A DNA stretch of 52,414 nt, taken from Hoeflea sp. (GTDB lineage Bacteria; Pseudomonadota; Alphaproteobacteria; Rhizobiales; Rhizobiaceae). Position 1 is the first letter of the stretch; each line of letters starts with the position of its first letter. Made by a program: the position numbers and the translations under genes. The DNA lies in assembly GCF_002733955.1 (NCBI RefSeq), contig NZ_NVXQ01000032.1:1-52414 (forward strand), read 5' to 3'. This document shows, piece by piece, positions 16,652 through 45,726 of the stretch. Under the pieces are notes generated by a model that searched no databases, was not told the DNA's origin, and was given only the letters and a program-made list of their open reading frames with translations.

Positions 16652-17398
16652 TTAGGGCATGTAGCCGCCGCCGTTGACCCAGAGCACCTGGCCGGTCATG
16701 AAACTGCTCGCGTCCGAGAGCAGAAAATTGATCGGACCGGTGACGTCTTCGGGCTGGGCCAGGCGCTGCATGGGGGTCGCCGCGCGATAGGCCTCGAGAT
16801 TGACGATGGATTGTTCGTCTTCGGCCGAACGGCCGGTGCCACCGCGCAGGAAGGCGGTATCGACCAAACCGGGCGCCACGGCGTTGAAGCGCACACGCGG
16901 TGCGTTTTCAAGGGCGAACACCTTGGTCATGGCAATCACCCCGGCCTTGGAAACCGAATAGGCGCCGTAGCCGGGTCTGACATTGGAAGCCAGGCCGGAG
17001 GAAATCATCACCACCGATCCGCCCTTCGCCATCAGCGGCAAGGCTGCCTTGGCTGTCAGGAAGGCGCCGCGAAGATTGCCATTGGTAATCTCGTCGAAAT
17101 AGGCGTCCGACATTTCTCCGAGTGGCTGCAACGCGCTGTTGTAACCGGCCAGATTGACGAAGCCGTCGATCGCCTCCCAGTGCCGGCCCAGTTCAGTGAA
17201 GGCTGTTGCCACGGACGTCTTGTCGCAGACGTCGATAGGGATGTTTTTTGCGTCGAGCGCATGCCGTTCCAGCGAGGCCGCCAGGTCCAGAACCACGATG
17301 TCGTCGCCCCGGGCCTGAAGCTCAGACACCAGGGTGCGGCCAATGCCGCCGGCGCCGCCGAGGACGGCGATACGGCGGGGAGCGTTGGCCTTACCCAC
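16652..17398 (-). CDS. Short-chain dehydrogenase/reductase (catabolic)
   Basis: NAD(P)-dependent SDR of 248 residues. It has a cofactor motif GGAGGIGRT (about 14-22), acidic residue in VVLDLA favouring NAD, NLAG at about 83-86, Ser in MISSG and the catalytic pair in YSVSK (about 146-150), followed by VNGGGYMP at the C-terminus. It is the last gene of a four-gene operon with a maleate isomerase-like enzyme, an ICL-family lyase and an isochorismatase-fold amidase, overlapping the amidase gene by 8 bases. It probably oxidises or reduces a hydroxy or keto acid in that pathway; the substrate is not visible. Confidence 0.85.
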   Translation of the reverse strand: MGKANAPRRIAVLGGAGGIGRTLVSELQARGDDIVVLDLAASLERHALDAKNIPIDVCDKTSVATAFTELGRHWEAIDGFVNLAGYNSALQPLGEMSDAYFDEITNGNLRGAFLTAKAALPLMAKGGSVVMISSGLASNVRPGYGAYSVSKAGVIAMTKVFALENAPRVRFNAVAPGLVDTAFLRGGTGRSAEDEQSIVNLEAYRAATPMQRLAQPEDVTGPINFLLSDASSFMTGQVLWVNGGGYMP

Positions 17399-18035
17399 GA
17401 CTTTGCCCGGTCTTGAGCGCGTGCAGATAGGCTATGATTTCGGCTTCCGAAACCACATCGGCATATTTGGCATTCATGTCGAACAGATTGGCTTCATGCG
17501 GCGCCGGGTGGCGGTCGCCACAGGCGTCGGCGACAACGCTTGTGGTGAAGCCGTGCGACATGGAATCGACGCAGGATGCGCGGACGCAGCCGCTGGTGGT
17601 CAGTCCGGTCAGAATCACACTGTCAACGCCCATGGCTGTCAGCGTCGAGGCGAGCGAGGTGCCGAAAAACGCAGATGGATATTGCTTGGTCACGATGATC
17701 TCGTCATCGCGCGGCACAAGGCCTTCGGCAAATTCGGCCGTCTTCTCGCCCTTGACGAAACAGGACAACGGCTTGGCTTTCTCGAAGAAACGGCCTCCGT
17801 CGCGGCCGCCTTTCTGATAGCTCACCTCGGTCAGGATTACCGGTATCCCGGCCTCGTGGGCGGCCTCGCGCACCCGCAAGGCCGACGCAAGCGCATCATC
17901 GACACCGGCATACAACACGCAATCCGGATCGAAATAGCCTTGCGCAAAATCGACCATCACCAGGGCGGGCGATGTGCCGAAACCCGCCTTGTTGTCATAG
18001 GCGATCTTGTAGTTGTCATCGAGATCCTGTGTCAT
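17391..18035 (-). CDS. Isochorismatase-fold amidohydrolase (N-carbamoylsarcosine/maleamate amidase-like)
   Basis: The cysteine-hydrolase fold has an intact catalytic triad: Asp29 (VMVDFAQGYFDP), Lys117 (VTKQYPSAFFGT) and Cys150 (GLTTSGCVRAS). The TTSGCVRAS signature and length (214 aa) favour the N-carbamoylsarcosine amidase / maleamate amidase (NicF) branch over true isochorismatases. The reaction is probably hydrolysis of an amide to a carboxylate plus ammonia. With a maleate isomerase-like gene in the same operon, maleamate or a substituted analogue giving maleate is an attractive substrate, but unproven. ATG 18035 follows AGGGAG by 6 bases; the preceding TTG is less likely. It starts 11 bases after the lyase stop. 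Confidence 0.83.
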   Translation of the reverse strand: MTQDLDDNYKIAYDNKAGFGTSPALVMVDFAQGYFDPDCVLYAGVDDALASALRVREAAHEAGIPVILTEVSYQKGGRDGGRFFEKAKPLSCFVKGEKTAEFAEGLVPRDDEIIVTKQYPSAFFGTSLASTLTAMGVDSVILTGLTTSGCVRASCVDSMSHGFTTSVVADACGDRHPAPHEANLFDMNAKYADVVSEAEIIAYLHALKTGQSRG

Positions 18036-18046
18036 CAACGTCTCCC

Positions 18047-18907
18047 TCAGATTTCAGCGTAGCGCTTCTCGAATTCCCAGACATCCTCGAAACCAAGCAG
18101 CTTGTTGAATTCGGCGAAGGAATAGAGGTCGATGTCGGGCGAGGTGATGCCATTTGCAGCCAGGTCCTTGTAGGCCTTGTCGAGTGCTGCGCCGACACTC
18201 AGGAAGCCCAGCGCGGGGTGGATGGCGATGGCATAGCCGAGCTCCTTCAACCGGTCTGCGGACAGCAGCGGCGTGCGGCCACCATTGACCATATTGGCAA
18301 ACAGCGGCGCGTCAATGCGCTCGGAAACGGTCTGCATTTCGGCTTCGGATTCAGGCGATTCAATGAAGACCACATCGGCGCCGGCTTTGCGGTAGGCGTC
18401 TCCGCGGCGAATGGCTTCATCCAGGCCGAGCCCGGTGCGGGAATCGGTGCGGGCGATGATCAGGAAATCACTGCTCGAGCGGGCGTCGCTGGCAACCCGG
18501 ATCTTGCGCACCATGTCTTCAAGCGGAATCACCCGTCGGTTGGGCGTGTGGCCGCATTTCTTTGGAAATTCCTGGTCTTCGATCTGGATTGCGGTCACGC
18601 CGGCGTCTTCATAGCCGCGGATAGTGTGGTGGACATTGAGAAGACCGCCATAGCCGGTGTCAGCGTCGGCGATCACCGGGGTGTTGGTCATCTTCACAAT
18701 CTGGGCGATGCGCTCGATCATGTCACGATAAGTGGCGATACCCGCATCCGGCAGGCCGAGATAGGACGCCACGGTGCCGTATCCGGTCACGTAAAGCGCT
18801 TTGAAACCGGCGCGGTCGGCGACAAGCGCGGAGATCAGATCGAAAACGCCTGGAGCGAGAATGAAGTCCTTGGCCTCGATGGCCTGTTTCAGGCGGGGGT
18901 CTGCCAT
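18047..18907 (-). CDS. Isocitrate lyase/PEP mutase-family carboxylate lyase (paralogue 1)
   Basis: The 286-residue alpha/beta barrel has the hallmarks of the ICL/PEP mutase superfamily: metal-binding ADADTGYGG (about 80-88), IQIEDQEFPKKCGH with the catalytic loop Cys, IIARTDSR, and VVFIESPESEAEM. The family includes 2-methylisocitrate lyase, 2,3-dimethylmalate lyase and oxaloacetate decarboxylase; all act on 2-hydroxy dicarboxylates or alpha-keto acids, usually releasing pyruvate or glyoxylate. The C-terminal FEDVWEFEKRY and the KKCGHTP loop are shared with a second paralogue at 38685, and identity looks high across the barrel. It lies between the maleate isomerase-like and amidase genes, so its substrate is probably a malate or alkylmalate derived from their product. 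Confidence 0.87.
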   Translation of the reverse strand: MADPRLKQAIEAKDFILAPGVFDLISALVADRAGFKALYVTGYGTVASYLGLPDAGIATYRDMIERIAQIVKMTNTPVIADADTGYGGLLNVHHTIRGYEDAGVTAIQIEDQEFPKKCGHTPNRRVIPLEDMVRKIRVASDARSSSDFLIIARTDSRTGLGLDEAIRRGDAYRKAGADVVFIESPESEAEMQTVSERIDAPLFANMVNGGRTPLLSADRLKELGYAIAIHPALGFLSVGAALDKAYKDLAANGITSPDIDLYSFAEFNKLLGFEDVWEFEKRYAEI

Positions 18908-18949
18908 GGGGTTTCCTTTCTTTTGGTGTGGTCTTTTGGCTGGGAGTGA

Positions 18950-19696
18950 TCAGAAGTCGGAGAGAAGTAGGCCGAAGCCTTGCAAACGGTCGTCGATACC
19001 GACAGCCCGCAGCATGGCCCAGAATGTCGCCTGGTTGGAGGTGACAACCGGCACGCCAAATTCCGCTTCCAGTTGCGCAATCAGCGGCAGCGTCGGGAAG
19101 TCGGTGCAGGTGATGAGGATGGCATCGCTGCCGGGCGTGAAAGCCGCCCGGACATGGTCAGCGACATGTTCCAGCGGCGTTTCGGCAATACGGACATAGT
19201 CAGCCGGTCCACTGGCACCGATGCCAAGCCCAATGAGATTGTCGACAGTGAAGCCGTTCTCTTCAAGAAACGCGGTCTCGTGCTGGTTGAGCTTGTCGTG
19301 ATACGGGGTGGCGACAGACAGCCGCGTCGCGCCCAGCGTTTTCAGTGCATGGATGATCGCTGCCGAGGTGGTCACCGCGGTCACGCCCATGCTTTCGGTC
19401 AGGTGCTCCGGCAGGGAGTTGACCGGATTGATCATGGAGCCGGCGGTGCAGGCATAGGCGACGGCATCAACCCGCGCAGGCTTGAGCATGCCGAAAACCG
19501 CTTCGAGATCCTGCATCAGGCCCGCCTTGCCGGCTTCGCTGGTGGTGTCTGCATGAAGCGGCATGCGGTGAGTATGAAATGTCACGCCTTGCGGCATCAT
19601 CCTCGACCACTCCGCCTCATTGACGGTGTTGGTCGGCGGGGTAATCAGGCCGAGCCTGGCTCTGTGACTGTAGGCCGACTTGTGCCGTGCAACCAT
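18950..19696 (-). CDS. Maleate cis-trans isomerase-like enzyme (Asp/Glu racemase superfamily)
   Basis: The 248-residue protein has the two-cysteine active site of maleate isomerase: Cys83 in AYACTAGSM and Cys197 in LITCTDFPTLP, with the N-terminal PPTNTVNE carboxylate-binding motif. Maleate isomerase converts maleate to fumarate without cofactor; relatives include aspartate and hydantoin racemases and arylmalonate decarboxylase. Retention of both Cys distinguishes it from the protein at 25573. It is the first gene of the minus-strand operon, preceded by GAGG 8 bases before ATG, and it diverges from the GntR/UTRA regulator gene. The product could be fumarate or a substituted fumarate if the true substrate is branched. 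Confidence 0.84.
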   Translation of the reverse strand: MVARHKSAYSHRARLGLITPPTNTVNEAEWSRMMPQGVTFHTHRMPLHADTTSEAGKAGLMQDLEAVFGMLKPARVDAVAYACTAGSMINPVNSLPEHLTESMGVTAVTTSAAIIHALKTLGATRLSVATPYHDKLNQHETAFLEENGFTVDNLIGLGIGASGPADYVRIAETPLEHVADHVRAAFTPGSDAILITCTDFPTLPLIAQLEAEFGVPVVTSNQATFWAMLRAVGIDDRLQGFGLLLSDF

Positions 19697-19843
19697 TGTG
19701 GAATCCTCTTGTAGTTACCTATAGCACGTCTTTGTGTGCAAATGTCCAGACAAGATGTAAGGCTTCACCACCTCAGACGTGGTACTTTCTGACCGGTGTT
19801 TTCCGTCGCGAATTTGCTGTATTCGAAACTGCAGAGCATCCGC

Positions 19844-19858
19844 TCTGTACGACACAGA
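19844..19858. promoter_or_regulatory. Inverted repeat, possible operator of the UTRA regulator
   Basis: TCTGT-N5-ACAGA lies 17 bases before the regulator ATG in the 178-bp divergent region. A second, looser palindrome (TTTG-N4-CAAA) lies near 19735. Either could be the operator of the adjacent GntR/HutC protein; this is a weak call from symmetry and position. Confidence 0.3.
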
Positions 19859-19874
19859 ACATCGGAAGACCCTT

Positions 19875-20639
19875 ATGGCCGCCAAAGAGGACATCCTGCC
19901 GCATAACAGCTTGCCGCGTTATGCGCAGATCCAGAAACAGCTTGAACAAAGACTGATGGACGGCGTCTACCCGATTGGCAGCCTGATGCCCTCGGAGCAG
20001 GAACTGTCGGCAGAATTCAACAGCAGCCGCACCACCATTCGCGAAGCATTGCGCTATTTGCGGGAACGCGGCTATGTGGAACGCAGGCAGGGTGTGGGAA
20101 CGCGGGTGATTTCGGATACGACCCGGTCTACCTATTTCCAGTCCTTCACCTCGCTTGAGGAATTGTTCCAGGTCGCGATCGACACCTATTACGTGGTGAT
20201 GGAGATCAAGACCGTGGCGCTTGATCCGGAGCTCGCCGAGCTTGTGGGTGGTCTTGCCGGAGAGGAATGGGTCCGCATCAGCGGTGTGCGCTGGACGGAA
20301 GCGGGCGGAAAACCGATCTGCTATGTGCAGAGCTATGTGCCCAAGCGCTGCCAGCACGTGGTAGATCCGTATCCGGATCACCAGGGACCGCTGTTTGAAC
20401 TCTTGGAGCGCAATGCCGATGCGACGATCGAAGAAGTGGTACAGGAAATCCGCGCGCTGCCGATGCCGGCGGACTTTATCCGGCAGCTCGGTCTGAAGCC
20501 GGGCTCCTGGTCGATGCAGCTGCTGCGCCGTTACGTGACCGAAAACGGTGTGCTGATTGCCTCGTTCAACTGGCATCCGGCTGACCAGATGACCTATCTG
20601 ATGCGGATCCACCGCAGTCGCGAGCAACCGGCCGACTGA
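19875..20639 (+). CDS. GntR/HutC-family transcriptional regulator with UTRA domain
   Basis: The 254-residue protein starts with a winged helix (about 12-80) containing the GntR signature: LPRYAQIQKQLEQRLMDGVY, MPSEQELSAEFNSSRTTIRE and ALRYLRERGYVERRQGVGT. Residues about 100-250 form a UTRA effector domain (chorismate lyase fold) ending in FNWHPADQMTYLMRIHR. Members bind operators as dimers and release them on binding a pathway metabolite. It is divergent from the isomerase-lyase-amidase-SDR operon and is probably its repressor and that of itself. ATG 19875 is preferred over an upstream in-frame codon because GGAAG lies 7 bases before it. The gene is convergent with the MBL hydrolase gene, 20 bases away. 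Confidence 0.87.
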   Translation: MAAKEDILPHNSLPRYAQIQKQLEQRLMDGVYPIGSLMPSEQELSAEFNSSRTTIREALRYLRERGYVERRQGVGTRVISDTTRSTYFQSFTSLEELFQVAIDTYYVVMEIKTVALDPELAELVGGLAGEEWVRISGVRWTEAGGKPICYVQSYVPKRCQHVVDPYPDHQGPLFELLERNADATIEEVVQEIRALPMPADFIRQLGLKPGSWSMQLLRRYVTENGVLIASFNWHPADQMTYLMRIHRSREQPAD

Positions 20640-20659
20640 GGGCCCTGCCATCGGCCTGG

Positions 20660-21535
20660 TCATGTCACAAAGCCAGGTACAAAGCCGCTGCCTGAGCCCT
20701 CGATCCGCATGGCCGAGAAATGGCGCAGATGCGCCGGAATCAGCAAGTTGCCGGTATCGGCAAGACGGTCGTACAGTTTCAGTCTGGTCTCGACCGCCAT
20801 GGCCGGGTCGCTGCAAAAACGGCTCGCCCATTCCGGTTGATAGACCTGCACGGGGCTGTGAACGGCATCGGCACAGAACAACGCCTGTTGTGTGCCGTGG
20901 CACAGGCAGAGGCCGAGCTGGCCCGGCGTGTGTCCCGGAAGTGCCGTCAGAGACAGCCCACCGCCGATGTCAAAGCCATCTTCAACGAAGTCCGCGAGGC
21001 CTGCTTCGATGATCGGCAGGACGCTGTCGTTGAAACAACCGTGATTGTGAACTCCGGGCGATTCCAGTTCCCGGGCTTGCCAATGGTCAAACTCCGCCCG
21101 GCCAATTAGGTAGCGCGCATTGGGAAAGGTTGGCACCCAGCGGCCGTCCACCAGCTGCGTGTTCCAGCCGACATGGTCGGTGTGCAGATGGGTGCACATG
21201 ACGATGTCGATGTCCTCGGGCCGGAGACCGGCCCGGGCCAGCCGTTCAAGATATCCGCTCGAGGCGCGCTGATCCCAGTCGGGACGGCGGGGGCGTGGCT
21301 TGTGTTCACCGACGCACGTGTCAATCAGGATGGTGCGTCCACCGATGCGAACAAGATGGCTGTGCACGCCAAGCAGGATCTCGCCGGCGTCAAAGTCGAC
21401 ATGGTAAGGCGCAAGGTCAGCGCGATGCGGCTCCAATGTCTCGATCTTGCGGCCGGGGAACAAAAGGTCGATCGGCAATGCGAAGCGATCGAGATCCGAG
21501 ATCGTGTCAATGGTGGCGGTGCCGAAGTTGAGCAT
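20660..21535 (-). CDS. Metallo-beta-lactamase-fold hydrolase (lactonase-like)
   Basis: The 291-residue MBL enzyme retains all metal ligands: HLHTDHVGW (HxHxDH), GHTPGQ, ADAVH and a late PAHLRH. The arrangement resembles N-acylhomoserine lactonases and 4-pyridoxolactonase. It probably opens a lactone or related ring ester in the cytoplasm; no signal peptide is present. It is the last gene of the seven-gene operon headed by the FAD monooxygenase, 11 bases after the SDR stop. ATG 21535 is chosen because upstream frame codons would overlap the SDR and give a low-complexity extension. Its presence suggests a lactone intermediate, as in vitamin B6 degradation, but the other genes for that pathway are not all present. 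Confidence 0.83.
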   Translation of the reverse strand: MLNFGTATIDTISDLDRFALPIDLLFPGRKIETLEPHRADLAPYHVDFDAGEILLGVHSHLVRIGGRTILIDTCVGEHKPRPRRPDWDQRASSGYLERLARAGLRPEDIDIVMCTHLHTDHVGWNTQLVDGRWVPTFPNARYLIGRAEFDHWQARELESPGVHNHGCFNDSVLPIIEAGLADFVEDGFDIGGGLSLTALPGHTPGQLGLCLCHGTQQALFCADAVHSPVQVYQPEWASRFCSDPAMAVETRLKLYDRLADTGNLLIPAHLRHFSAMRIEGSGSGFVPGFVT

Positions 21536-21546
21536 GGCGGTTCCCG

Positions 21547-22392
21547 CTACATGATCGCTGGTTTGGCGATGGTCGGCTGGCAGCTCGCAGCAGCGGCCTC
21601 CGATGGCTGCAGGGCCTCGTCCCAGAGCCGGGCGATATACCGGCCTCCCGTTTTGCCGTTGGACTGATCGTCCGCCAGCCACAGGATTGCGCGGCGCATG
21701 ATGGCTGCGGGTAGCAGGTTGCCGTCCGCGCCTTTCTTGTCGGCACTCGGCGGCAGCAGGTCGGTGTCGGCGGCTCCGCCCGGCAGGTAGACATTGACGT
21801 CGACACCGGTGCCGGCGAGATCCTGTGCCCAGACCCGCGACACGGCTTCAAGCGCCGCCTTGCTTGGACCGTAGGGGGCGTAGCCGCGCCGGACCATGGT
21901 CTGGTCGCTGGTGGATATGTTGATTACCTTGCCGAAACCGCGGGCCACCATTCCGGGCACAAGCGCCCGGGCCATGTTGAAGGCGCCGTTGATATTGGTG
22001 TCTATGATGTCTTTCCAGGCAGTCGGATCGGTTTCCCAAAATCGTGTCGGCTCGGTGTTGAAGGTCTCACTCACCCGGCGCATACCGAGCCCGGCATTGT
22101 TGATCAGGACATCGACATGGCCAAAGGCTTCAGCGGCTGCCGCGCCTGCTGCTTCGCACTGGGCGTAATCGGCGACATCGGCTGTCAAGGCGATTGCCTT
22201 GCCGGAGCCGAGGCTGTTGGCTTCCGCAACGGTCGCATCAAGTGCCGGGCCGGGACGGGAGCCGACGACCGCAAGAGAGGCTCCGGCTTCCGCAAGCGCC
22301 AGAACCATCTCGCGGCCCAGACCGCGTGAGCCGCCGGTGACCATGATCGTGCGGCCGGCAAGCGAGGGATAGGTTGATGAGATATCGCTCAT
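21547..22392 (-). CDS. Short-chain dehydrogenase/reductase of the FAD-monooxygenase operon
   Basis: A 281-residue SDR with cofactor motif GGSRGLG (about 20-26), NNAG (about 97-100), Ser in NISTSD and the catalytic pair YGPSK (about 174-178). After the usual core (about residue 250) there is a C-terminal tail of about 30 residues rich in Ala and Pro, not typical of the family. It overlaps the aldehyde dehydrogenase gene by 4 bases (ATGA), so the two are translationally coupled and probably act in sequence, alcohol to aldehyde to acid. The substrate cannot be read from the sequence. Confidence 0.85.
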   Translation of the reverse strand: MSDISSTYPSLAGRTIMVTGGSRGLGREMVLALAEAGASLAVVGSRPGPALDATVAEANSLGSGKAIALTADVADYAQCEAAGAAAAEAFGHVDVLINNAGLGMRRVSETFNTEPTRFWETDPTAWKDIIDTNINGAFNMARALVPGMVARGFGKVINISTSDQTMVRRGYAPYGPSKAALEAVSRVWAQDLAGTGVDVNVYLPGGAADTDLLPPSADKKGADGNLLPAAIMRRAILWLADDQSNGKTGGRYIARLWDEALQPSEAAAASCQPTIAKPAIM

Positions 22393-23897
22393 TCGGCTGC
22401 CATCCCCATGCGCGGCATCTTGCGTGGTTCGCGCGCGATGATGGTGGTCTTCATCTCGGTGAACATGGCCTGTGACCCCTTGGCCCCTTCGCGGCCCAGA
22501 CCCGACTGCTTGTAGCCGCCGAACCCGGTTCTCAGATCGCGTACGATCGGCGTGTTGACCAGAACTGTTCCGGTTCGCAGTCCCGATGCCACCCGCATCG
22601 AGCGGTTGAGATCATCGGTCCAGACATAGCCGACAAGTCCGAAATCGCTTTCGTTGGCCTTGGCGACCACTTCGTCCTCGTCGTCAAACAGCTGCAGCGC
22701 TGCGAAGGGGCCGAAGATTTCTTCCTGGCAGATGGCCAGGTCATTGCCCGGCGCCAGCATGGCGGTCGGTTCGAAGAAGTAGCCGGTGTTCAGATTGGCG
22801 CAGCGGTGTCCGCCTGCGAGCAGGGTGGCGCCTTCGCCCAATCCGCTCTCGGCATAGCGCTCCATGCGCTCTCTCTGGGCCTGGTTGATCATTGGGCCAA
22901 TCTCGGTGCCGGCGACCATCGGGTCGCCGATCTTCAGCGCCTTGACCCGGCGGCTGAAGCTGTCGATGAAGCGGTCGGAGATTTTCCGGTCGACGAAGAT
23001 GCGACTGCCGGCCAGGCACATCTGGCCATTGTTCATGAAGGAGCTCATCAGCGCTGCGTCGATGGCCTGGTCGAAATCCGCATCGGCAAAGACGATGTTG
23101 GCCGACTTGCCTCCGAGTTCCATTGCCGAGCCCTTGATGCCCTTGGCCAGAGACTGAAGGATCGCCGCCCCGGTGACCGTGCCGCCGGTGAACGACACCA
23201 TGTCGATATCGGGATGCGAGACGAGCGCCGTGCCTGTCACCTGACCACGGCCGTTGACCAGGTTCATCACGCCATCCGGCAGCAGCCCTTCGATGATCTG
23301 GAACAGCCGTGTGACGGTGAGCGGGGTCAATTCGGACGGCTTGACCACACAGGTATTGCCGAAGGCCAGCGCCCCGGCGATCTTCATCGCGGTCAGGCCC
23401 AGCGGCATGTTCCAGGGGCCGATCAGCGCGCAGACGCCTATGGGATCGTAGGTGACCAGGCTCATGAGGCCGGGCTCCTGGGTGAAGACCTCTCCCCCCG
23501 CCTGGTTGATGTACTCGCCAAAGAAGCGGAAATTCTGTGCCGCGCGCGGGATGTGAAAACCGCGCGTCTGCGTGAGCGGAATGCCTGTGTTGATGGTCTC
23601 CAGCATCGCCAGTTCATCGGCATGGTCGAGAATTGCATCATGGATCGCGTTCAGCGCCACCTGCCGTTCAGCGACGGTGGTCCTGCCCCAGGGCCCTGTG
23701 TCAAAAGCCGCGCGAGCCGCACGGACTGCCTGGTCGACTTCGTCAGCGAAGGATTCGAGCAGCGTCGCGACACGGGTTTCCGTCGCCGGATCAATGACGC
23801 CGATCTCCTCGGCGCCGGCCGGAGCCGTGAAGCGGCCGGAGACATAACCGCTGAGTTTCAGCGGAGTGCGGTAGAGTTGTTCACGAAGCTCGGACAT
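22389..23897 (-). CDS. NAD(P)-dependent aldehyde dehydrogenase
   Basis: The 502-residue enzyme has the full ALDH active site: Asn163 in GPWNMPL, Glu260 in MELGGKSANIVF, Cys294 in NNGQMCLAGSR, and EIFGPFAALQLF later. It resembles the HpaE / betaine-aldehyde / 5-carboxymethyl-2-hydroxymuconate semialdehyde dehydrogenase group, so the substrate may be a semialdehyde of a dicarboxylate. It follows the FCD regulator gene by 19 bases and overlaps the SDR, within a seven-gene operon. The likely role is oxidation of a ring-cleavage or side-chain aldehyde to the acid. Confidence 0.9.
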   Translation of the reverse strand: MSELREQLYRTPLKLSGYVSGRFTAPAGAEEIGVIDPATETRVATLLESFADEVDQAVRAARAAFDTGPWGRTTVAERQVALNAIHDAILDHADELAMLETINTGIPLTQTRGFHIPRAAQNFRFFGEYINQAGGEVFTQEPGLMSLVTYDPIGVCALIGPWNMPLGLTAMKIAGALAFGNTCVVKPSELTPLTVTRLFQIIEGLLPDGVMNLVNGRGQVTGTALVSHPDIDMVSFTGGTVTGAAILQSLAKGIKGSAMELGGKSANIVFADADFDQAIDAALMSSFMNNGQMCLAGSRIFVDRKISDRFIDSFSRRVKALKIGDPMVAGTEIGPMINQAQRERMERYAESGLGEGATLLAGGHRCANLNTGYFFEPTAMLAPGNDLAICQEEIFGPFAALQLFDDEDEVVAKANESDFGLVGYVWTDDLNRSMRVASGLRTGTVLVNTPIVRDLRTGFGGYKQSGLGREGAKGSQAMFTEMKTTIIAREPRKMPRMGMAAE

Positions 23898-23916
23898 GCA
23901 AAAATCCTCGAAAGTG

Positions 23917-24639: not shown

Positions 24640-24641
24640 CG

Positions 24642-25550: not shown

Positions 25551-25572
25551 GGTGGTGCTCCCGGGACAAGCC

Positions 25573-26319: not shown

Positions 26320-26362
26320 GGCTGAATGTCCTTTCTAAACGTGTGGGCGTGCCCGGCCCGGG

Positions 26363-27568: not shown

Positions 27569-27621
27569 TATCGATTTTTCTCCGTCAATGTTCCGCTTGA
27601 CAAGGCTCAAGTGCTAAATCA

Positions 27622-28865: not shown

Positions 28866-28867
28866 AG

Positions 28868-36373: not shown

Positions 36374-36376
36374 CTT

Positions 36377-37681: not shown

Positions 37682-37743
37682 TGTCAAATCTCCATTCAAA
37701 GCTGATGTGAGCGCCGGCCTGGCGCCGTGTCAAAGGCAAAACG

Positions 37744-38688: not shown

Positions 38689-39566
38689 TCTGCCGCGTCT
38701 TTGGGCTCACGCGCCCAGCGCCGTTCGAAATCCCAGACGTCATCGAAGCCGATCAACGAGTTGAATTCGCTGAAATCGAAAAGCGGCACGTCCGGTGAAA
38801 GCGAGGTTCCCTCGTTATTCAGAAGATTGAGCACCGCTTCGGCCGCGGCCGCTGCGGCAAGGCCGGTGGCGGCGGGGAAGATCGCCATGTTGTAGCCAAT
38901 GTCCTGCATCTCGGCCTTGGAGCGGATCGGCGTGCGGCCACCATCGGCCATGTTGGCCATCATCGGCTTGGAGACGCGGCGGCAGGCTTCGCGCATCTCG
39001 TCTTCGCTTTCGAGCGCTTCGAGGAAAACCACATCGGCACCCGCATCTCCATAGGCAAGCCCGCGTTTCAGCGCGCCTTCGAAGCCATCGGTCTGGCGCG
39101 CATCGGTGCGGGCGATGATCAGGGTTTCCGGATTGCGCCGCGCTTCCACCGCGACCTTGACCTTTTCCACCATGTCGATGATCGGCACCACCCGCTTGAA
39201 CGGCGTGTGGCCGCACTTCTTCGGAAACTCCTGGTCCTCGATCTGGATCGCCGCCACACCGGCCTCTTCATAGCCGCGCACGGTGTGGTGCACGTTGAGC
39301 AACCCGCCATAACCGGTATCGGCATCCGCAATGACGCCCGCATTGGAGGTGCGGCACAGCGTGGCGACCCGATCGACCATCTGGGTGTAACTGGCAATGC
39401 CGGCATCGGGCAGACCCAGAGCCGAGGCCGTCATCCAGTAGCCCGAGGCGTAAACGAAATCGAAGCCCACCTTGTTGCAGACCGCTGCTGTGATCATGTC
39501 ATGGATGCCCGGCGCCAGCACAAATTGTCCGGATTCAAGGGCGGCCTTCAGGCTCGGTTTGCTCAT
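38685..39566 (-). CDS. Isocitrate lyase/PEP mutase-family carboxylate lyase (paralogue 2)
   Basis: The 293-residue barrel is closely related to the protein at 18047: ADADTGYGG (about 80-88), IQIEDQEFPKKCGH, LIIARTDARQ and VVFLEALESEDEM are in the same positions, and both end in GFDDVWDFERR-type helices. The family cleaves or decarboxylates hydroxy dicarboxylates (2-methylisocitrate, 2,3-dimethylmalate, oxaloacetate). Directly downstream of LeuC/LeuD-like dehydratase subunits, it forms the pair hydratase plus lyase known from dimethylmaleate metabolism in anaerobic nicotinate breakdown; that substrate is an inference. AGGA precedes the ATG. Confidence 0.87.
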   Translation of the reverse strand: MSKPSLKAALESGQFVLAPGIHDMITAAVCNKVGFDFVYASGYWMTASALGLPDAGIASYTQMVDRVATLCRTSNAGVIADADTGYGGLLNVHHTVRGYEEAGVAAIQIEDQEFPKKCGHTPFKRVVPIIDMVEKVKVAVEARRNPETLIIARTDARQTDGFEGALKRGLAYGDAGADVVFLEALESEDEMREACRRVSKPMMANMADGGRTPIRSKAEMQDIGYNMAIFPAATGLAAAAAAEAVLNLLNNEGTSLSPDVPLFDFSEFNSLIGFDDVWDFERRWAREPKDAAE

Positions 39567-39627
39567 TGTTGGGTCCTGTCAGTTAGGGGGCGCCTGGGAT
39601 CCGCCCCGGGAGGTAATTGTGAGCCGG

Positions 39628-40278
39628 TCACCTGGCGCGGGTATCGGCAAAAAGACGTTCCAGCCGTCCGTCATCGAGAAACAGCCACGGCTGGCTGGCG
39701 CGCAGGCGCGCTTCGAAGGCTGCAATCTCATCGGCGTCGTCAGCGAGGATGCTGCCGATTTCATCAAGGCCGAGCATCAGCGTGCGGCGCCGGTAGGGGT
39801 CGATATCGAGCCCTATGACCTCACCATCAGGAAGTTCTACCGTCTGGGTTTCGAGATCGACCGTAATCGGCTTGCCGCTTTCCGCAGCCAGCATCACCCG
39901 CTCATGCGCATCGCCCTGAATGACCAGCGGCAATGCGCCGTTCTTGAAACAGTTGGAATAGAAGATCTCGCCGAAGCTTGGGGCAATGACGCAGCGAATG
40001 CCGAAATCCGTCAGCGCCCAAACCGCCTGTTCTCGGCTGGAGCCCGAGCCGAAATTGGCGCCGGCGACCAGAATTTCCGCCTGGTCGAATGGCGGGGTGT
40101 TGAGAACGAAATCGGTCCTGGTGCCGTCGCGGCGGTGGCGGCGTTCGTGAAACAGGTGTTTGCCAAGGCCGGCCTTGTCGAGCAGCAGCAGGAAACGGGC
40201 TGGAAAAATGACATCGGTGTCGACATCGGCTTCGCGCAGGGCAGCCGCCGGGCTGGTGATTTTGGTGAATTTTTGCAT
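39628..40278 (-). CDS. LeuD-like small subunit of an isopropylmalate-dehydratase-family hydro-lyase
   Basis: The 216-residue aconitase-family swivel domain reads FTKITSPAAALREADVDTD at the start, then FPARFLLLLDKAGLGKHLF and GANFGSGSSREQAVWAL (about 70-86), the canonical substrate-binding loop. The length is slightly above typical LeuD (about 200). Its stop-start overlap with LeuC is one base (TGATG), so the two subunits are made together. In this catabolic operon it probably hydrates an unsaturated dicarboxylate (maleate, citraconate, dimethylmaleate or similar) rather than making leucine; a genuine leucine enzyme cannot be excluded. Confidence 0.83.
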   Translation of the reverse strand: MQKFTKITSPAAALREADVDTDVIFPARFLLLLDKAGLGKHLFHERRHRRDGTRTDFVLNTPPFDQAEILVAGANFGSGSSREQAVWALTDFGIRCVIAPSFGEIFYSNCFKNGALPLVIQGDAHERVMLAAESGKPITVDLETQTVELPDGEVIGLDIDPYRRRTLMLGLDEIGSILADDADEIAAFEARLRASQPWLFLDDGRLERLFADTRAR

Positions 40279-41690
40279 CAGGTGGTGGGTTCCAGTTTTC
40301 GCACATCAATGAGGTGGCCGGCGATTGCGGCTGCGGCGGCCATTGCCGGGCTCATCAGATGCGTGCGGCCGCCCTGGCCCTGGCGGCCTTCGAAATTGCG
40401 GTTGGAGGTGGAGGCGCAGCGCTCGCCGGGCTTGAGCCGGTCGTCATTCATCGCCACGCACATGGAACAGCCCGAGGCCCGCCATTCGAAGCCTGCATCG
40501 ATGAAGATGCGGTCAAGGCCCTCGCTTTCGGCCTGCTTTCGCACACTGGCCGAGCCGGGGACGGCAATGGCTGTCACCGTTGGCGCGACCTTGCGGCCTT
40601 TGACGACGGAGGCTGCAATGCGCATGTCCTCCAGCCTGCCATTGGTGCACGAGCCGATGAAGACGTGGTCCACGTCGATCTCTTCAAGCGGCATGCCCGG
40701 CTTGAGATCCATATAGGCAAGGCTGCGTTCCATCTTGGTGCGCCGGACCGGATCTGATTGATCTGCGGGATCGGGCACGCGTTCCGAGACCGGGCTGGTT
40801 TCACCCGGGTTGGTACCCCACGACACGTGCGGGCTCAGCGCTGCGACATCGAGGTCGACTTCCTTGTCGAACACGGCATCAGGTTCGCTCGGGAGTGTTT
40901 GCCAATGTGCGAGCGCTGCCTCCCAGGCTTCACCCGCGGGAGCAAGCGGCCGCCCCTTGAGGTAGGAGAAGGTCGTCTCGTCCGGCGCCACCATGCCGAC
41001 CCGGCTGCCGGCCTCGATCGACATGTTGCACAGTGTCATGCGCGCTTCCATCGACAGCGTGGCAATGGCCGTGCCTGCATATTCGATGGCGTAGCCGACA
41101 CCGCCATGGGTGCCGATCTTCGCAATCAGGGCCAGGATGATGTCCTTGACCGCGACGCCAGGCTGCAGCGCGCCATTGAGCGTGACCCGCATTGTCTTCT
41201 GTTTTCTCTGGCGCAGTGTCTGAGTGGCGAATACGCATTCACATTCGCTTGCACCGATACCAAAGGCGATTGCGCCAAAGGCTCCGTGGGTGGAGGTATG
41301 ACTGTCGCCGCAGACCAGCGTGGCGCCGGGCAGGGTAAAGCCCAGTTCAGGCCCGATAACGTGGACAATCCCGTGCCGGTCATCGGTCATTGTGATGTAG
41401 TCGATGCCGAAGCGGGTGCAGTTTTCGATCAAGCGCTCAACCTGCCGCGCGGCCAGCCCTTCGGCCAGCGGCAGATGCCTGTCGCGGGTCGGAACGGCGT
41501 GGTCAGCCACCGAAATATGTGCTGATGGCCGTGCCAAAGCCCGGTTTTGCTCGATAAGACCGGCAAAAGCTTGTGGGCTGGAAACTTCCTGCACCAGGTG
41601 GCGGTCGATGTAGAGCAGGGACGTTCCGTCGTCGTAATCCCTGACGACGTGGCTCTGCCAGACTTTTTCATAAAGGGTTCTTGCGGTCAT
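40278..41690 (-). CDS. LeuC-like large subunit of an isopropylmalate-dehydratase-family hydro-lyase
   Basis: The 470-residue iron-sulfur subunit keeps all aconitase motifs: [20 protein letters not shown] (about 130-149), [13 protein letters not shown] (about 340-352) with the first cluster Cys, and [14 protein letters not shown] (about 402-415) with the other two. It binds a [4Fe-4S] cluster and adds or removes water on a dicarboxylate. The length and [16 protein letters not shown] start are those of bacterial LeuC. It is first in a six-gene catabolic operon and diverges from hyuA, with a 14-bp operator-like sequence between, which argues for a catabolic substrate. ATG 41690 is preferred over the longer frame, which runs over that control region. 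Confidence 0.85.
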
Positions 41691-41884
41691 TTGCGTTTTT
41701 CGGTCCCGAGGCATGGTGGCGACGATGCGGACGACCCGGATCGGCGCAGAAAAATGTCGGAGCCCAGCGCATTTTCCTGTTGCGGATGGGCGGAAAGGCA
41801 ATCTATGTTGAATTGAATACGCATGCAATATCATTTTGGATAGGCCTGCGAGAAGGGGATCACAATGCGCATAGAGGAATTGTC
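41691..41884. promoter_or_regulatory. Divergent control region between leuC-like and hyuA-like genes
   Basis: This 194-base gap has no gene. The middle (about 41795-41845) is AT-richer than its surroundings and contains the 14-bp sequence shared with the lacI-transporter region. It should carry the promoters for both operons. Confidence 0.55.
41814..41827. promoter_or_regulatory. LacI-type operator candidate (copy 1)
   Basis: TGAATACGCATGCA here is found exactly, in reverse orientation, at 47074-47087 in front of the sugar-type transporter and next to the LacI gene. The core GCATGC is palindromic. It sits 58 bases before the hyuA ATG and 124 bases before the leuC ATG. Confidence 0.55.
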
Positions 41885-43942
41885 ATGAGACTAGGCGTCG
41901 ACGTTGGTGGCACGTTCACCGATCTTCTGCTGCACGATGAAAAAACGCAGCGCACCTATGAGGCCAAAACGCCTTCAACGCCGGAAGACCAGTCGATCGG
42001 GGTTGCTGCCGGCGTGAAGCTGATCTGCGAAAAGGCTGGTATCTCGCCATCTGACGTGGAGCTGATCCTGCACGGCACAACGGTTGCGACCAATGCCGTG
42101 CTGGAAGGCAAGGGCGCGCGGGTCGGGCTGCTGGTCACCGAAGGCTTCGAGTACACGCTGCATCTGGCCAAGGCCTGGACCCCTGGTCCGCTGTTCGGCT
42201 GGATCAACATGGAAAAACCCGATCCGCTGGCCTCGCTGGCCGATACCCGCGGCATTCCTGAACGGATGAATGCACGTGGTGAAGTCGTCCGCGAACTCGA
42301 TATCGAGAAGGCCACGGCCATGATCGATGATCTGTGCAGTTCCGGTATTGAAGCGCTCACCATCTCGCTGATGCACTCCTATGCAAACGCCGAACATGAG
42401 CGCGCGCTTGGCGCGATCGTGGCGGAGCGCTATCCTGACATTCCGGTCTCGCTGTCCTCGGACATCCTGCCGGAATTTCGCGAGTACGACCGCGCCATCA
42501 CCACGGTGATGAATGATTATGTCCGGCCGATCATGAAGCGTTACCTGTCGCGGATCGAAGACCGGCTGGACAAGGAAGGCGTCAGCGCCCGGCTCCACAT
42601 CGTCCGCTCGGACGGCGGCTTGATGAGCGCGGCGGCTGCCTCCGAGCGTCCCGTCCATACAGTGCTTTCCGGTCCTGCCGGTGGTGTGACCAGCACGGTG
42701 ATGTTGTCGCGGCGCTCTGGCTTTTCCAAGCTGCTCGCCTTTGACATGGGCGGCACGTCGACAGACGTGTCGGTGATCATCGATGGCGAGGCGACGATTT
42801 CGCGCTCGACCGAGGTCGGCATGTTCCCGGCCAAGGTGCCAACGCTAGATGTGCGCAGTGTCGGCGCCGGCGGCGGATCCATCGCCGATGTTTCCGAACT
42901 GACCGGTTCGCTTCGCGTCGGTCCGCGCAGTGCCGGCGCCAATCCGGGACCTGTCTCCTACGGGCGTGGCGGAACCGAACCGGCCGTCAGCGACGCCAAT
43001 GTGGTGCTCGGCTATTTGCCGCCGGTGCTTCTGGGCGGCGACATGTCGCTTGATGTGGACGGCGCCCGCAAGGCAGTGGCCGGGATCGGCGAAACACTCG
43101 GCCTGTCGCCGGAAGATGCGGCCAAGGGCATCATCGATATTGCCAATGAAGTCATGCTTGGCGCGTTGCGGGTGATCACCGTGCAGCGCGGTCTTGATCC
43201 GCGCGAATTCGGCATTGTCGCCTTTGGCGGTGCAGGTCCGCTGCATGCCAACGCCATTGCGGAACTGCTGGGCTGCTATCCGGTGATGGTGCCGCCCAAT
43301 CCGGGCGTGCTGTCTGCACTCGGATTCCTTGAGGCCGATTTCAAGAACGAATTCGTTCAGACCTATATCCGCTCCACCGTCGGGCTTGACCCGGATGCCG
43401 TGTGGTCGCGGTTTGCAGAGCTTGAAGACAAGGCCAAGACTTGGCTCAAGGAGCAGGAAGTGTCGGCTGCCGATGCGTCGATCCAGTACACGCTGGACCT
43501 GCGCTATGAGCAGCAGGGCTTTGAGGTCTCGGTTGATGTCAGCGAAGAGCTGGTCCGTCAGAAGGGCGGGCTGGAGCCGATCCTGGCCGATTACCACGCG
43601 CTGCACGAACGCCTCTACGGCGTGCGCTTCACGGTTCCGGTGGAGCTCGTTGCCTTGCGTGTGGTTGCCCGCGGTGCAACGCCGCCGGTCAATGAAGCCG
43701 CGCCCACCGGTTCAGCGGGCGATGTCAAGGCTGCGATCATGGAAACCCGGCCGGCCTATTTCGATGGCGCCTGGCACGAGACGCCGCATTACGATCGCAG
43801 CAAGCTCGGTGTCGGGTCGCGTGTCGAAGGCCCGGCGATCATCCGGCAGTACGACACGACCACGGTGCTGCTGCCTGCTCATTACGCCGAGATCGATGAT
43901 CACGGTAACGTCCTCATCTGGCCAATTTCGAAGGGAATGTGA
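41885..43942 (+). CDS. hyuA: Hydantoinase/oxoprolinase family subunit A (HyuA-like)
   Basis: The 685-residue protein has the HyuA architecture: an N-terminal actin-like ATP site (LGVDVGGTFTDLLLHD, about 2-17), GTTVATNAVLEGKGARVGLL (about 61-80), FDMGGTSTDVSVI (about 282-294), and GAGGGSIADV (about 324-333). The beta-strand C-terminus is like that of 5-oxoprolinase. The family splits cyclic amides with ATP (N-methylhydantoin, 5-oxoproline) and also includes acetone/acetophenone carboxylases. GAGG lies upstream of ATG 41885. With HyuB it forms the active complex, and it is divergent from the leuC operon. Confidence 0.9.
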   Translation: MRLGVDVGGTFTDLLLHDEKTQRTYEAKTPSTPEDQSIGVAAGVKLICEKAGISPSDVELILHGTTVATNAVLEGKGARVGLLVTEGFEYTLHLAKAWTPGPLFGWINMEKPDPLASLADTRGIPERMNARGEVVRELDIEKATAMIDDLCSSGIEALTISLMHSYANAEHERALGAIVAERYPDIPVSLSSDILPEFREYDRAITTVMNDYVRPIMKRYLSRIEDRLDKEGVSARLHIVRSDGGLMSAAAASERPVHTVLSGPAGGVTSTVMLSRRSGFSKLLAFDMGGTSTDVSVIIDGEATISRSTEVGMFPAKVPTLDVRSVGAGGGSIADVSELTGSLRVGPRSAGANPGPVSYGRGGTEPAVSDANVVLGYLPPVLLGGDMSLDVDGARKAVAGIGETLGLSPEDAAKGIIDIANEVMLGALRVITVQRGLDPREFGIVAFGGAGPLHANAIAELLGCYPVMVPPNPGVLSALGFLEADFKNEFVQTYIRSTVGLDPDAVWSRFAELEDKAKTWLKEQEVSAADASIQYTLDLRYEQQGFEVSVDVSEELVRQKGGLEPILADYHALHERLYGVRFTVPVELVALRVVARGATPPVNEAAPTGSAGDVKAAIMETRPAYFDGAWHETPHYDRSKLGVGSRVEGPAIIRQYDTTTVLLPAHYAEIDDHGNVLIWPISKGM

Positions 43943-43947
43943 TCAAG

Positions 43948-45726
43948 ATGGCAACCAAAGTCGATCCAATTACTCTCGACATCATCGAGAACGCGCTCAA
44001 GAATGCCCGCTTCGAGATGGACGGCGTCGTCGTCCGTATCTCGCTGTCGCCGGTCATCCGCGAGCAGCATGACGAATTTCCGATGATCTGCAACGAACGT
44101 GGCCAGATGGTTGTTGGCCAGTTCGGATCCTACATTCCCTCGGTTGTCGAAAAATTCGGTGGCGATGTGAATGAAGGCGATATCTTCGTCTGGAATGATC
44201 CCTATGCCTCCAAGGGCTCGATCTCGCACAACAATGACTGGTGCGTGATGCTGCCGATCTTCCACGAAGACGTGCTGGTCGGCTTTTCCTCGATCTTCGG
44301 CCACATGGTCGATGTCGGCGGCTCGGTGCCGGGTTCGATGCCGGCCAACGCCCGCACGATCTGGGAAGAAGGCCTGCGGGTGCCGCCGGTGAAGATCTAT
44401 GAAAAGGGCGTGCTCAATCAGGGCGTCCTCGACATCATGCTCAACAATTCGCGCACGCCCGACATGAACCGGGCCGATCTGATGGCGCTGATTGCCGGTT
44501 GCAAGACAGCGTCCACCCGGGTGCGTGAGCTGTGCGACCGCTTTGGCCGCGAGACCTACATGACGGCCTGCGACATGTTGCTTGACCGGACCCGCGAAGC
44601 CATGCGGCAGGTGATCTGCAAGTACATCCCGGAAGAGCCGGTCAGCTTCACCGACTATGTCGATGATGACGGCCTGGGCAATGGTCCGTTCAAGATGACG
44701 CTGACCATTTCCAGGCGGGGCGACATTGCGGTGTTCGACTGGACAGGAACTGATGACCAGGCGGAAGGGCCGATCAACTTCCATATCCATGAAGGCCTCT
44801 GCAAGCTGTTCTTCGGCGTCTACATGATCATGTCATTTGATCCGTCGGTGCTGTTCAACGAAGGCTTCTATGATCTCTTCGAGATTGTGCTGCCCGAGGG
44901 AAGCTTGCTCAATCCGCGCTTCCCGGCGGCGCTGTCTAACCGGCTCAACACCCATACGCGGTTTTTCGATTGCCAGGCCGGTGCGCTCGGCAAGTTCGTG
45001 CCGCAACTGTCGATGGCTGCCGGTTACGGCACCAGCCCGCATTTTATCTTCTCGGGCACCGACAAGGACGACAAGTACTTCCAGCTGATGGAGCTTCTGT
45101 TCGGCGGTGTGCCGGGACGTCCCAAGGGAGATGGCTTCGACGGGCACGCCTGGTGGCCTTTGTTTTCGGCGACCCCGATCGAGTATATCGAGAACTACTA
45201 TCCGGTGCTGGTCGAGCGCTACCTGCCGATCCAGGATTCGGGTGGACCGGGTCTGCATCGCGGCGGCGCGGGCATCGAAAAGGTTTACCGCATGCTCGCA
45301 GCCGGCAAGGTCTCGATCCATGATGACCGCGAGGTGGTTCCGCCATGGGGTATCAATGGCGGCCTGCATGGCGGCACGTCCAGCAAATGGGTGATCAAGG
45401 CCGGCGAAGAGGAGCCGACCCGCATTCCCTCCAAGATCGACAATCTCAAGGTCGAGCCAGGCGACCGCGTTGTCTTCAAGACGGCCGGCTCGGGTGGCTG
45501 GGGTGATCCTCTCGACCGCGACAGCTCTGTCGTGGCGCGCGATGTGCGCTACGGGCTGGTCTCCAGGGATCAGGCAAAAGATTCCTACGGCGTCGTCCTG
45601 ACGGCGGACAATCACCCGGATGAGGCGGCAACTGTCACGCTTCGTGCCTCGGCCAAGGAAAAGCGCGGCGAACCGCCGGCCTTCGACTTTGGCTACACGC
45701 CGCCCAACGGACAGGCATCCGGATAA
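43948..45726 (+). CDS. hyuB: Hydantoinase/oxoprolinase family subunit B (HyuB-like)
   Basis: The 592-residue subunit begins VDPITLDIIENALKNARFEM, the standard HyuB start, followed by FPMICNERGQMVVGQFGS, GDIFVWNDPYASKGSISHNN (metal-site His/Asp region) and GSGGWGDPLDRD near the end. It supplies the hydrolytic active site for the HyuA ATPase partner. The start is ATG 43948, or GTG 43939, which overlaps the hyuA stop (GTGA); the ATG gives the usual N-terminus. The likely reaction is ATP-driven opening of a hydantoin-like or lactam ring; carboxylation cannot be excluded. A strong terminator follows. Confidence 0.9.
   Translation: MATKVDPITLDIIENALKNARFEMDGVVVRISLSPVIREQHDEFPMICNERGQMVVGQFGSYIPSVVEKFGGDVNEGDIFVWNDPYASKGSISHNNDWCVMLPIFHEDVLVGFSSIFGHMVDVGGSVPGSMPANARTIWEEGLRVPPVKIYEKGVLNQGVLDIMLNNSRTPDMNRADLMALIAGCKTASTRVRELCDRFGRETYMTACDMLLDRTREAMRQVICKYIPEEPVSFTDYVDDDGLGNGPFKMTLTISRRGDIAVFDWTGTDDQAEGPINFHIHEGLCKLFFGVYMIMSFDPSVLFNEGFYDLFEIVLPEGSLLNPRFPAALSNRLNTHTRFFDCQAGALGKFVPQLSMAAGYGTSPHFIFSGTDKDDKYFQLMELLFGGVPGRPKGDGFDGHAWWPLFSATPIEYIENYYPVLVERYLPIQDSGGPGLHRGGAGIEKVYRMLAAGKVSIHDDREVVPPWGINGGLHGGTSSKWVIKAGEEEPTRIPSKIDNLKVEPGDRVVFKTAGSGGWGDPLDRDSSVVARDVRYGLVSRDQAKDSYGVVLTADNHPDEAATVTLRASAKEKRGEPPAFDFGYTPPNGQASG

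Follow-up and report, generated by a model that had tools for sequence, protein, structure and literature searches.

The question raised by contig NZ_NVXQ01000032.1 of a Hoeflea-like member of the Rhizobiaceae is whether its long run of catabolic genes constitutes one degradative pathway, and for which compound. The whole contig, 52,414 bp of a 4.86-Mb genome, is referred to below as the window. The initial annotation described a 29-kb supercluster ending at position 45726 and matching no complete known pathway. This supercluster is in fact two conserved catabolic modules, A (16,652-35,594) and B (35,612-52,127), and we propose with moderate confidence that they are neighbouring, separately regulated units feeding one common amide intermediate. 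The degradation scheme of the annotation was partly supported and its borders had to be corrected; the right edge of the cluster lies beyond view, as the window ends with the contig.

Two conserved catabolic modules

All enzyme classes named in the annotation are encoded in long open reading frames with family matches in Pfam and NCBIfam scans, and the gene content, operon-like layout, conservation, operator-like motifs and single amidase described below are read from the DNA itself. Module A has two minus-strand gene rows that look like operons. Intergenic gaps measure -8 to 42 bases in SDR1-amidase-ICL1-ASPR1 and -4 to 43 bases in MBL-SDR2-ALDH-GntR-PuuE-ASPR2-FMO (MBL, metallo-beta-lactamase-fold hydrolase; ALDH, aldehyde dehydrogenase; FMO, FAD-dependent ring monooxygenase). 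The two rows are separated by a divergent HutC-type gene, and the ABC and TRAP importers run the opposite way. The set recurring as module B comprises HyuBA, LeuCD-ICL2-3HCDH, LacI, a sugar-type ABC importer, HisD-SDR3 and an alcohol dehydrogenase.

Of 568 FMO relatives the best 80 were kept, and their loci were taken with flanks of at most 10 kb on either side, in several cases less. Neighbours were counted as tblastn matches over more than half of the query at more than 40 % identity, which gives lower bounds. ASPR2 was found near FMO at 61 of the 80 loci, the amidase at 56, ICL1 at 43, SDR2 at 42, TRAP and TAXI at 37 each, SDR1 and HutC at 35 each, BPD1 at 34, ASPR1 at 33, PuuE at 32, MBL at 27, and ALDH and GntR at 24 each. 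The numbers for LeuC and LeuD were 8 and 6, for HisD, SDR3 and the Fe-dependent alcohol dehydrogenase (Fe-ADH) 2 each, for LacI and ICL2 1 each, and for 3HCDH and HyuAB 0. Module A is widespread in Alphaproteobacteria and occurs in rhizosphere and marine bacteria, e.g. Hoeflea, Agrobacterium, Neorhizobium and Pseudooceanicola. Many Roseomonas-type loci showed no recognisable gene besides FMO and the amidase, apart from an ASPR2-like gene in some. The compact row of locus L040 reads HutC-ASPR2'-FMO-ICL1-LeuC-LeuD-amidase, that of L039 FMO-ICL1-LeuC-LeuD-amidase-PuuE, and Flavimaribacter has ASPR1-ICL1-SDR1 followed by LeuCD and the amidase.

Module B genes lie together in nine other loci, namely in Hoeflea alexandrii, four Rhodobacterales and four stand-alone cases, with not all genes called or covered in each. 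Genes in relatives were called by a simple codon-score method that missed some module B genes in genomes G148 and G183, where the presence of 3HCDH is known from homology search. Since module A genes recur at the 80 fetched monooxygenase loci and module B genes at the nine others, the cluster is not a chance grouping, and the linkage of its blocks noticed in the annotation is also seen in other genera. The nearest named relative, H. alexandrii (Parahoeflea in the taxonomy used), has the same gene order at about 80-97 % identity, a range that excludes the ALDH piece cut at the stretch border; G013 and G061, identical in contig and coordinates, are apparently the same genome of this species and were counted once. 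The cluster is accessory, the monooxygenase being present in 2 of 18 same-genus genomes and in 3 of 61 genomes overall (own genome included).

The annotation had treated the cluster as a single unit closing with HyuB. That border was set too early, because LacI, the sugar-type ABC importer and Fe-ADH, up to position 52127, accompany module B in relatives. Nor does the unit hold together everywhere: a search of 397 genomes of the order found a 3HCDH orthologue (E<=1e-95) in 5, own genome included, and in the other four module B stands alone, with no monooxygenase detected. Such stand-alone copies would be expected if the window simply held two unrelated accessory catabolic islands as neighbours, the single amidase being a coincidence of copy number; so would the arrangement in Allorhizobium, where some 16 kb separate module A from a reduced set made up of LacI, LeuCD, ICL2 and Fe-ADH. 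We consider this explanation unlikely. Among 32 genomes chosen for holding the monooxygenase, five have a 3HCDH orthologue (at least 58 % identity), and in all five it is on the same contig as FMO, within about 23 kb, with A and B adjacent or about 22 kb apart and in two orders. Two Rhodobacterales, Pseudooceanicola batsensis and Kandeliimicrobium roseum, have modules A and B next to each other, and about 22 kb separate 3HCDH from FMO in Rhodobacter xinxiangensis and Cereibacter flavus.

A single amidase, probably common to modules A and B

For the isochorismatase-fold amidase (17391-18035, minus strand; Pfam 122 bits), all 30 aligned sequences have the Asp and Cys motifs intact. All motif alignments of catalytic residues reported here were pre-filtered by length and identity and include the window. 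At E<=1e-45, 13 of the 14 genomes tested had exactly one copy, among them all six that combine FMO with 3HCDH; Neorhizobium has two, one of them flagged with a stop within the match that is maybe its natural end. The gene lies in module A in four of the six (G000, G061, G067, G072) and in module B, between LeuD and ICL2, in the other two (G079, G080). In all four genomes with stand-alone module B, that module includes an amidase gene placed between LeuCD and ICL2. In Martelella and Microvirga a 79 %-identical amidase follows LeuC-LeuD(-ICL2), with none within reach of their FMO loci. Because each of the six genomes with A and B has a single amidase, placed in either module, the intermediates of the two modules probably converge and the amidase is probably common to both; the same finding speaks against unrelated islands.

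LeuCD, the amidase and a lyase are adjacent in L039, L040, Flavimaribacter and the stand-alone module B loci. These rows fit the order foreseen in the annotation, in which amide hydrolysis to a maleate-type diacid is followed by hydration and lyase cleavage. One signature (PAR[FY]LL..., SSREQAVW), unlike that of canonical LeuD, is common to most LeuD copies of A-type and B-type loci; Gemmobacter has the variant SSREHAVW.

Operator-like motifs

The 14-mer TGAATACGCATGCA occurs exactly twice in the window, once per strand: as a putative LacI-type operator in the LeuC/HyuA divergent promoter (41814-41827, plus strand) and as an exact, conserved copy in the LacI/ABC promoter (47074-47087, minus strand). 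The candidate operator sequence of the module B LacI protein is TGAATnCGnATTCA. H. alexandrii, P. batsensis, Kandeliimicrobium, G148, G183, G198 and G293 have LacI-type sites at the two equivalent promoters. Allorhizobium has a site at LacI/LeuC and C. flavus one upstream of the gene for the ABC binding protein, and in R. xinxiangensis three module B promoters carry such a site, one of them with two mismatches; Flavimaribacter and Gemmobacter gave none. When up to three mismatches are allowed, the 14-mer has 6 sites in the window, a number not above chance (mean 4.75); what speaks for a LacI operator is the identical pair and the fact that it is conserved. The palindrome TGAATRCGYATTCA has four window sites, each with one mismatch and two of them inside genes, and in 30 shuffles (up to two mismatches) it gave a mean of 0.47 and at most 4. 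A LacI-operator-like site with one mismatch also lies inside LeuC (41228-41241), in a like place in H. alexandrii and also in C. flavus and R. xinxiangensis; it is perhaps an auxiliary operator.

Module A carries other operator-like motifs, TGTCCAGACA in the ASPR1/HutC divergent promoter (19743-19752) and ATGTCACGACAT, with a TGTCnnGACA core, in the FMO/ABC divergent promoter (27633-27644). The core was found upstream of FMO in 32 of 77 loci, at 1.24 per kb against 0.056 per kb overall (about 22-fold), and upstream of HutC in only 3 of 35. Of its three window copies two are in module A promoters and one is inside HisD (36518). No strong motif common to the promoters of A and B was found in the window, the best agreement being 12 of 14 bases between FMO/ABC and LeuC/HyuA. 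As the operator-like motifs differ, the two modules look separately regulated. The same difference is compatible with unrelated islands, against which stands the third LacI-type site found before TAXI, a module A gene, in P. batsensis and Kandeliimicrobium.

Genes of module A

Conserved catalytic motifs were seen in alignments of ICL1, the amidase, MBL, LeuC and ASPR1. In the first minus-strand row SDR1 (16652-17398; Pfam adh_short_C2, 179 bits) is an oxidoreductase and ICL1 (18047-18907) a C-C lyase of the PEP-mutase/ICL family, whose PDB matches are petal death protein (214 bits) and 2,3-dimethylmalate lyase (181 bits); the lyase-type loop K[KR]CGH is present in 39 of 39 aligned sequences. 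ASPR1 (18950-19696; PDB maleate isomerase 2xec, 79 bits) has the catalytic C83 and C197 in 35 of 35 aligned sequences, as a two-Cys maleate isomerase would. The annotation was right in listing a maleate isomerase-like enzyme, although two proteins of this fold are encoded, and the second, ASPR2 (25573-26319, minus strand), has neither catalytic Cys of maleate isomerase or arylmalonate decarboxylase. The HutC/UTRA-type GntR regulator (19875-20639, plus strand) scores 83 bits with TIGR02018, under the cut-off of 220.

The second minus-strand row starts with the lactonase-like hydrolase MBL (20660-21535; Pfam Lactamase_B, 85 bits), in which HxHxDH is kept in 26 of 26 aligned sequences, followed by the oxidoreductase SDR2 (21547-22392; Pfam adh_short, 157 bits), ALDH (22389-23897; Pfam Aldedh, 506 bits; best equivalog HpaE, 485 bits with a cut-off of 638) and a GntR-FCD regulator (23917-24639; Pfam GntR and FCD). 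The PuuE-like cyclic amide/imide hydrolase (24642-25550) matches PDB 1z7a (136 bits) and PuuE allantoinase 3cl6 (135 bits), and its 161 bits with the allantoinase equivalog TIGR03212 do not reach the cut-off of 424.6. FMO (26363-27568; Pfam FAD_binding_3, 213 bits) is related to PnpA (217 bits) and HspB (162 bits) in the PDB.

On the plus strand a branched-chain-type ABC importer of two permeases, two ATPases and a binding protein (27948-32522) adjoins FMO in relatives as well; for the binding protein (31347-32522) only general amino-acid-type PDB relatives were found. It is followed by the TAXI TRAP binding protein (32618-33313; TIGR02122, 103 bits) and the fused TRAP permease (33714-35594; TIGR02123, 503 bits, above cut-off). 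In this assembly the TAXI gene has an early in-frame stop and ends at 231 amino acids, and the relative from H. alexandrii (314 amino acids) aligns in the same frame to 33559. A frameshift was considered and dropped, as the relative aligns full length in one frame across the stop; the stop may be a sequencing error, or else the binding protein may be missing from this TRAP system. A TPP-dependent enzyme lies near TAXI/TRAP in L105 (17854-19590; NF006203, above cut-off), L020, L043, L046 and Flavimaribacter, and none was recognised in the window cluster. To the left of module A (1-16598) the scanned genes include an MscS-type channel, topoisomerase IB, a Zn-dependent dehydrogenase, an SDR, cytochrome oxidase subunit I and CtaG.

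Genes of module B

The annotation counted four oxidoreductases of the SDR/HAD/HisD groups; the correct set over both modules is three SDRs, one HisD, one 3HCDH and one Fe-ADH, plus ALDH. The minus strand of module B encodes SDR3 (35612-36373; family scan and presence with module B in relatives), a HisD-like dehydrogenase (36377-37681; TIGR00069, 443 bits), the 3HCDH-family dehydrogenase (37744-38688; NF004783, 364 bits, above cut-off), the second ICL-family lyase ICL2 (38685-39566), and the LeuD-type (39628-40278) and LeuC-type (40278-41690) hydratase subunits. The HisD-like gene is a paralogue, one of four hisD matches in the genome, of which the best (529 bits) is on contig C29. ICL2 has the sequence KKCGH and ICL1 the same type of loop, as in lyases of PrpB/DMML type, and both score under the PrpB equivalog cut-off.

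Both hydratase subunits pass the NCBIfam cut-offs for 3-isopropylmalate dehydratase (LeuC, TIGR00170, 723 bits with a cut-off of 560; LeuD, 188 bits with a cut-off of 116), and the Fe-S Cys motifs of LeuC are present in 9 of 9 aligned sequences, yet LeuD lacks the canonical signature: it has PARFLLL / FGSGSSREQAVW in place of PKDYLKT / FGCGSSREHAPW in the canonical copy of the genome. With a better-scoring canonical leuC on contig C15 (808 bits with TIGR00170) and leuD on contig C36, the window pair does not appear to be the leucine copy. A second hydratase-lyase pair is encoded on contig C18 of the same genome (about 9010-11251), where an ICL-family lyase gene lies beside LeuD-like and LeuC-like genes.

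The ATP-dependent hydantoinase/oxoprolinase subunits HyuA (41885-43942; Pfam, 335 bits) and HyuB (43939-45726; Pfam, 495 bits) are encoded on the plus strand and reach no NCBIfam equivalog cut-off. The LacI-family regulator (45833-46870, minus strand; family scans) is kept with module B in relatives, as is the plus-strand sugar-type ABC importer of binding protein, ATPase and permease (47146-50890). A vitamin B6 ligand for this importer was considered and rejected: the ATPase (48324-49892) scores 282 against 670 bits for NF047930, below AraG and YtfR, and no ligand is implied. Fe-ADH (50970-52127, plus strand; Pfam Fe-ADH) comes after LeuC-LeuD-ICL2 in Allorhizobium; in C. flavus and R. xinxiangensis it immediately precedes FMO.

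The possible amidase product and the proposed ending of the pathway

The amidase (E<=1e-60) was found in 21 of 385 genomes of the class, own genome included. Nineteen stretches around such relatives in other families were read from 18 of the 20 other genomes (G562 and G722 were left out); several come from one genus or family and are not independent. HyuA/HyuB occurred in 10 of them, a CoA-transferase III with an HMGL-like lyase in 12, an ICL in 7 and an FMO relative, only 41-43 % identical, in 3. Stretch L185, which starts inside HyuB, was counted as having no HyuB, and L192, for which the gene caller yielded no genes, carries them according to tblastn. The three CoA-transferases tested scored best as succinyl-CoA:mesaconate or succinate-glutarate CoA-transferase, below cut-off. 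All four HMGL-like lyases exceeded the HMG-CoA-lyase subfamily cut-off, which makes HMG-CoA itself an alternative substrate. In L187 an MmgE/PrpD gene adjoins the ICL. A Sua5/YrdC-domain protein of about 240 amino acids is also encoded near the amidase in L184 (10338-11060) and L187 (Pfam) and in L185, L186 and L192 (tblastn).

To our knowledge citramalate is the only compound cleavable by both endings, to pyruvate and acetate or acetyl-CoA. Because both ICL and CoA-transferase/HMGL could act on it, a citraconate/citramalate ending is proposed; the company of LeuCD/ICL and CoA-transferase/HMGL points to conversion of an alkylmaleate via an alkylmalate to pyruvate and an acid, perhaps through citraconate and citramalate. 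The two endings are not clean alternatives, since they occur together in some loci, among them four of the 19 stretches (L184, L185, L186, L192).

The frequent presence of HyuA/HyuB would also suit a hydantoin/N-carbamoyl route, in which HyuAB opens a hydantoin-like ring and the amidase acts as an N-carbamoyl-amino-acid hydrolase, as in the breakdown of creatinine and N-methylhydantoin. The combination of HyuAB with an isochorismatase-fold enzyme resembling N-carbamoylsarcosine amidase recalls that pathway, and the best PDB match of the amidase is an N-carbamoylsarcosine amidohydrolase (26st, 141 bits, compared with 120 bits for 3ot4/3uao, 'putative isochorismatase'). We regard this route as quite improbable, since LeuCD, ICL, CoA-transferase/HMGL and FMO misfit an amino-acid product, the creatinine pathway being without the carbon-skeleton lyases present in the window. 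Furthermore, HyuAB pass no equivalog cut-off and neither creatininase nor creatinine deaminase nor another creatinine-specific family was found among the window genes scanned.

Comparison with known pathways

In the aerobic nicotinate pathway of Pseudomonas and Bordetella the enzymes NicC, NicX, NicD, NicF and NicE act in turn. Judged by fold and motifs, the window would share with it an FAD ring hydroxylase, an isochorismatase-fold amidase (maleamate amidase there) and a two-Cys maleate isomerase. A variant of that pathway could be imagined, in which FMO yields a dihydroxypyridine, an unlinked dioxygenase opens it, and the amidase and isomerase finish the conversion; the resemblance of FMO to HspB and PnpA and of the amidase and ASPR1 to NicF/NicE-type enzymes agrees with this. 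The variant is nevertheless very unlikely. All genes between 16652 and 52127 are assigned otherwise, leaving none in the cluster for NicX (2,5-dihydroxypyridine dioxygenase) or NicD (deformylase), for which the rest of the genome was not searched. Plain maleate would need neither hydratase nor lyase, and PuuE and HyuAB would stay unexplained. In these additions, i.e. the PuuE-like hydrolase, HyuAB, LeuCD and the ICL lyases, and in an FMO nearer to PnpA/HspB, the cluster departs from the Nic pathway.

In Eubacterium barkeri dimethylmaleate hydratase is followed by 2,3-dimethylmalate lyase, and in both systems a LeuCD-type hydratase feeds, or would feed, an ICL-family lyase. The E. barkeri system differs in being anaerobic, without FMO and with other upstream steps, and the window LeuC and LeuD score to the long bacterial leuC/leuD models. 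Itaconate and mesaconate are broken down by a CoA-transferase and citramalyl-CoA lyase, which recalls the CoA-transferase III and HMGL-like lyase beside the amidase in relatives, whereas the window has LeuCD and the ICL lyases in that place.

As far as tested, the statement that the cluster matches no complete known pathway holds. None of the window genes reached the equivalog cut-offs for 4-pyridoxolactonase, FHMPC dehydrogenase, biuret, RutB, caprolactamase or allantoinase. The vitamin B6 route was rejected with 51 of 325 bits for 4-pyridoxolactonase (NF047925) and 154 of 500 bits for FHMPC dehydrogenase (NF042925). None of the 45 PDB matches of FMO at 1e-10 was named MHPCO, which says little on remote kinship. 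No description of the cluster was found in the open-licence PMC literature searched, and the word 'undescribed' below means no more than that.

A precedent for FMO, a dehydrogenase, a PuuE-related imidase and an amidase in one pathway is offered by the hxn nicotinate route of Aspergillus nidulans, which, in the part of the source available, proceeds via a cyclic imide with an FMO, a polyol-type dehydrogenase, a PuuE-related cyclic imidase and an amidase (PMC9304392). According to the same part of the source the hxn route differs in being fungal, in that HxnM is closely related to a Pseudomonas putida cyclic imide hydrolase, in using an amidase of another family, in having no LeuCD or ICL and in ending at alpha-hydroxyglutarate (PMC9304392). 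The riboflavin/lumichrome route, as far as that source was available, uses a P450, a Rieske enzyme and a catechol dioxygenase and is not encoded by this cluster (PMC12746152). Homarine was also considered and yielded no set of genes for comparison.

Proposed pathway and its meaning

We infer the chemical steps, the regulation and the substrate class from the predicted functions of the genes. In module A a ring compound would be imported by the ABC or TRAP system and its ring hydroxylated or opened by FMO; SDR/ALDH, the lactonase-like enzyme and the PuuE-like hydrolase would then lead to a maleamate-type amide, possibly by way of an imide or lactam formed by SDR/ALDH and opened by the PuuE-like enzyme or HyuAB. 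In module B a hydroxylated cyclic amide or imide would enter through the sugar-type ABC importer, its alcohol groups would be oxidised by Fe-ADH, HisD, SDR and 3HCDH, and the ATP-dependent HyuAB would open the ring to give the same kind of amide. The single amidase would release ammonia to leave an alkylmaleate-type diacid, which LeuCD may hydrate to an alkylmalate and ICL1/ICL2 may cleave to a short acid plus a 2-oxoacid that is probably pyruvate. Conversion of citraconate via citramalate to pyruvate and acetate would best fit the gene company seen elsewhere.

Several observations weigh against this proposal. Of 63 FMO loci longer than 15 kb, 38 have ICL only, 3 both endings, 3 CoA-transferase/HMGL only and 19 neither. 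The dedicated LeuD is not universal: 10 of the 32 FMO-containing genomes have one with at least 55 % identity to the window LeuD, a count that leaves out the canonical-like copy of G070, and in at least four others a LeuD that has diverged further lies inside the A locus or next to it. Only 32 of the 80 loci have PuuE near FMO, and ASPR2, the gene most often with FMO, is given no reaction. Moreover, the best PDB relative of the amidase is not a maleamate amidase. As the modules carry different operator-like motifs and module B occurs where FMO was not detected, a common substrate is not required.

Taken at its fullest, the proposal is of an undescribed aerobic alphaproteobacterial route for two related nitrogen compounds, in which an aromatic ring attacked by FMO and a hydroxylated cyclic imide or lactam opened by HyuAB converge on one alkylmaleamate, followed by citraconate-type hydration and lyase cleavage to pyruvate, and in which the Cys-less maleate-isomerase-fold enzyme carries out a reaction new to its superfamily right after FMO; in this extended form it is put forward only tentatively. 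The spread of module A suggests that it probably handles a common natural nitrogen compound, one whose aerobic fate is not assigned in the sources searched. The Cys-less ASPR2 is a good candidate for new chemistry, and the scheme can be tested through the amidase that the modules probably have in common, through both operator motifs and through the ending, which varies.

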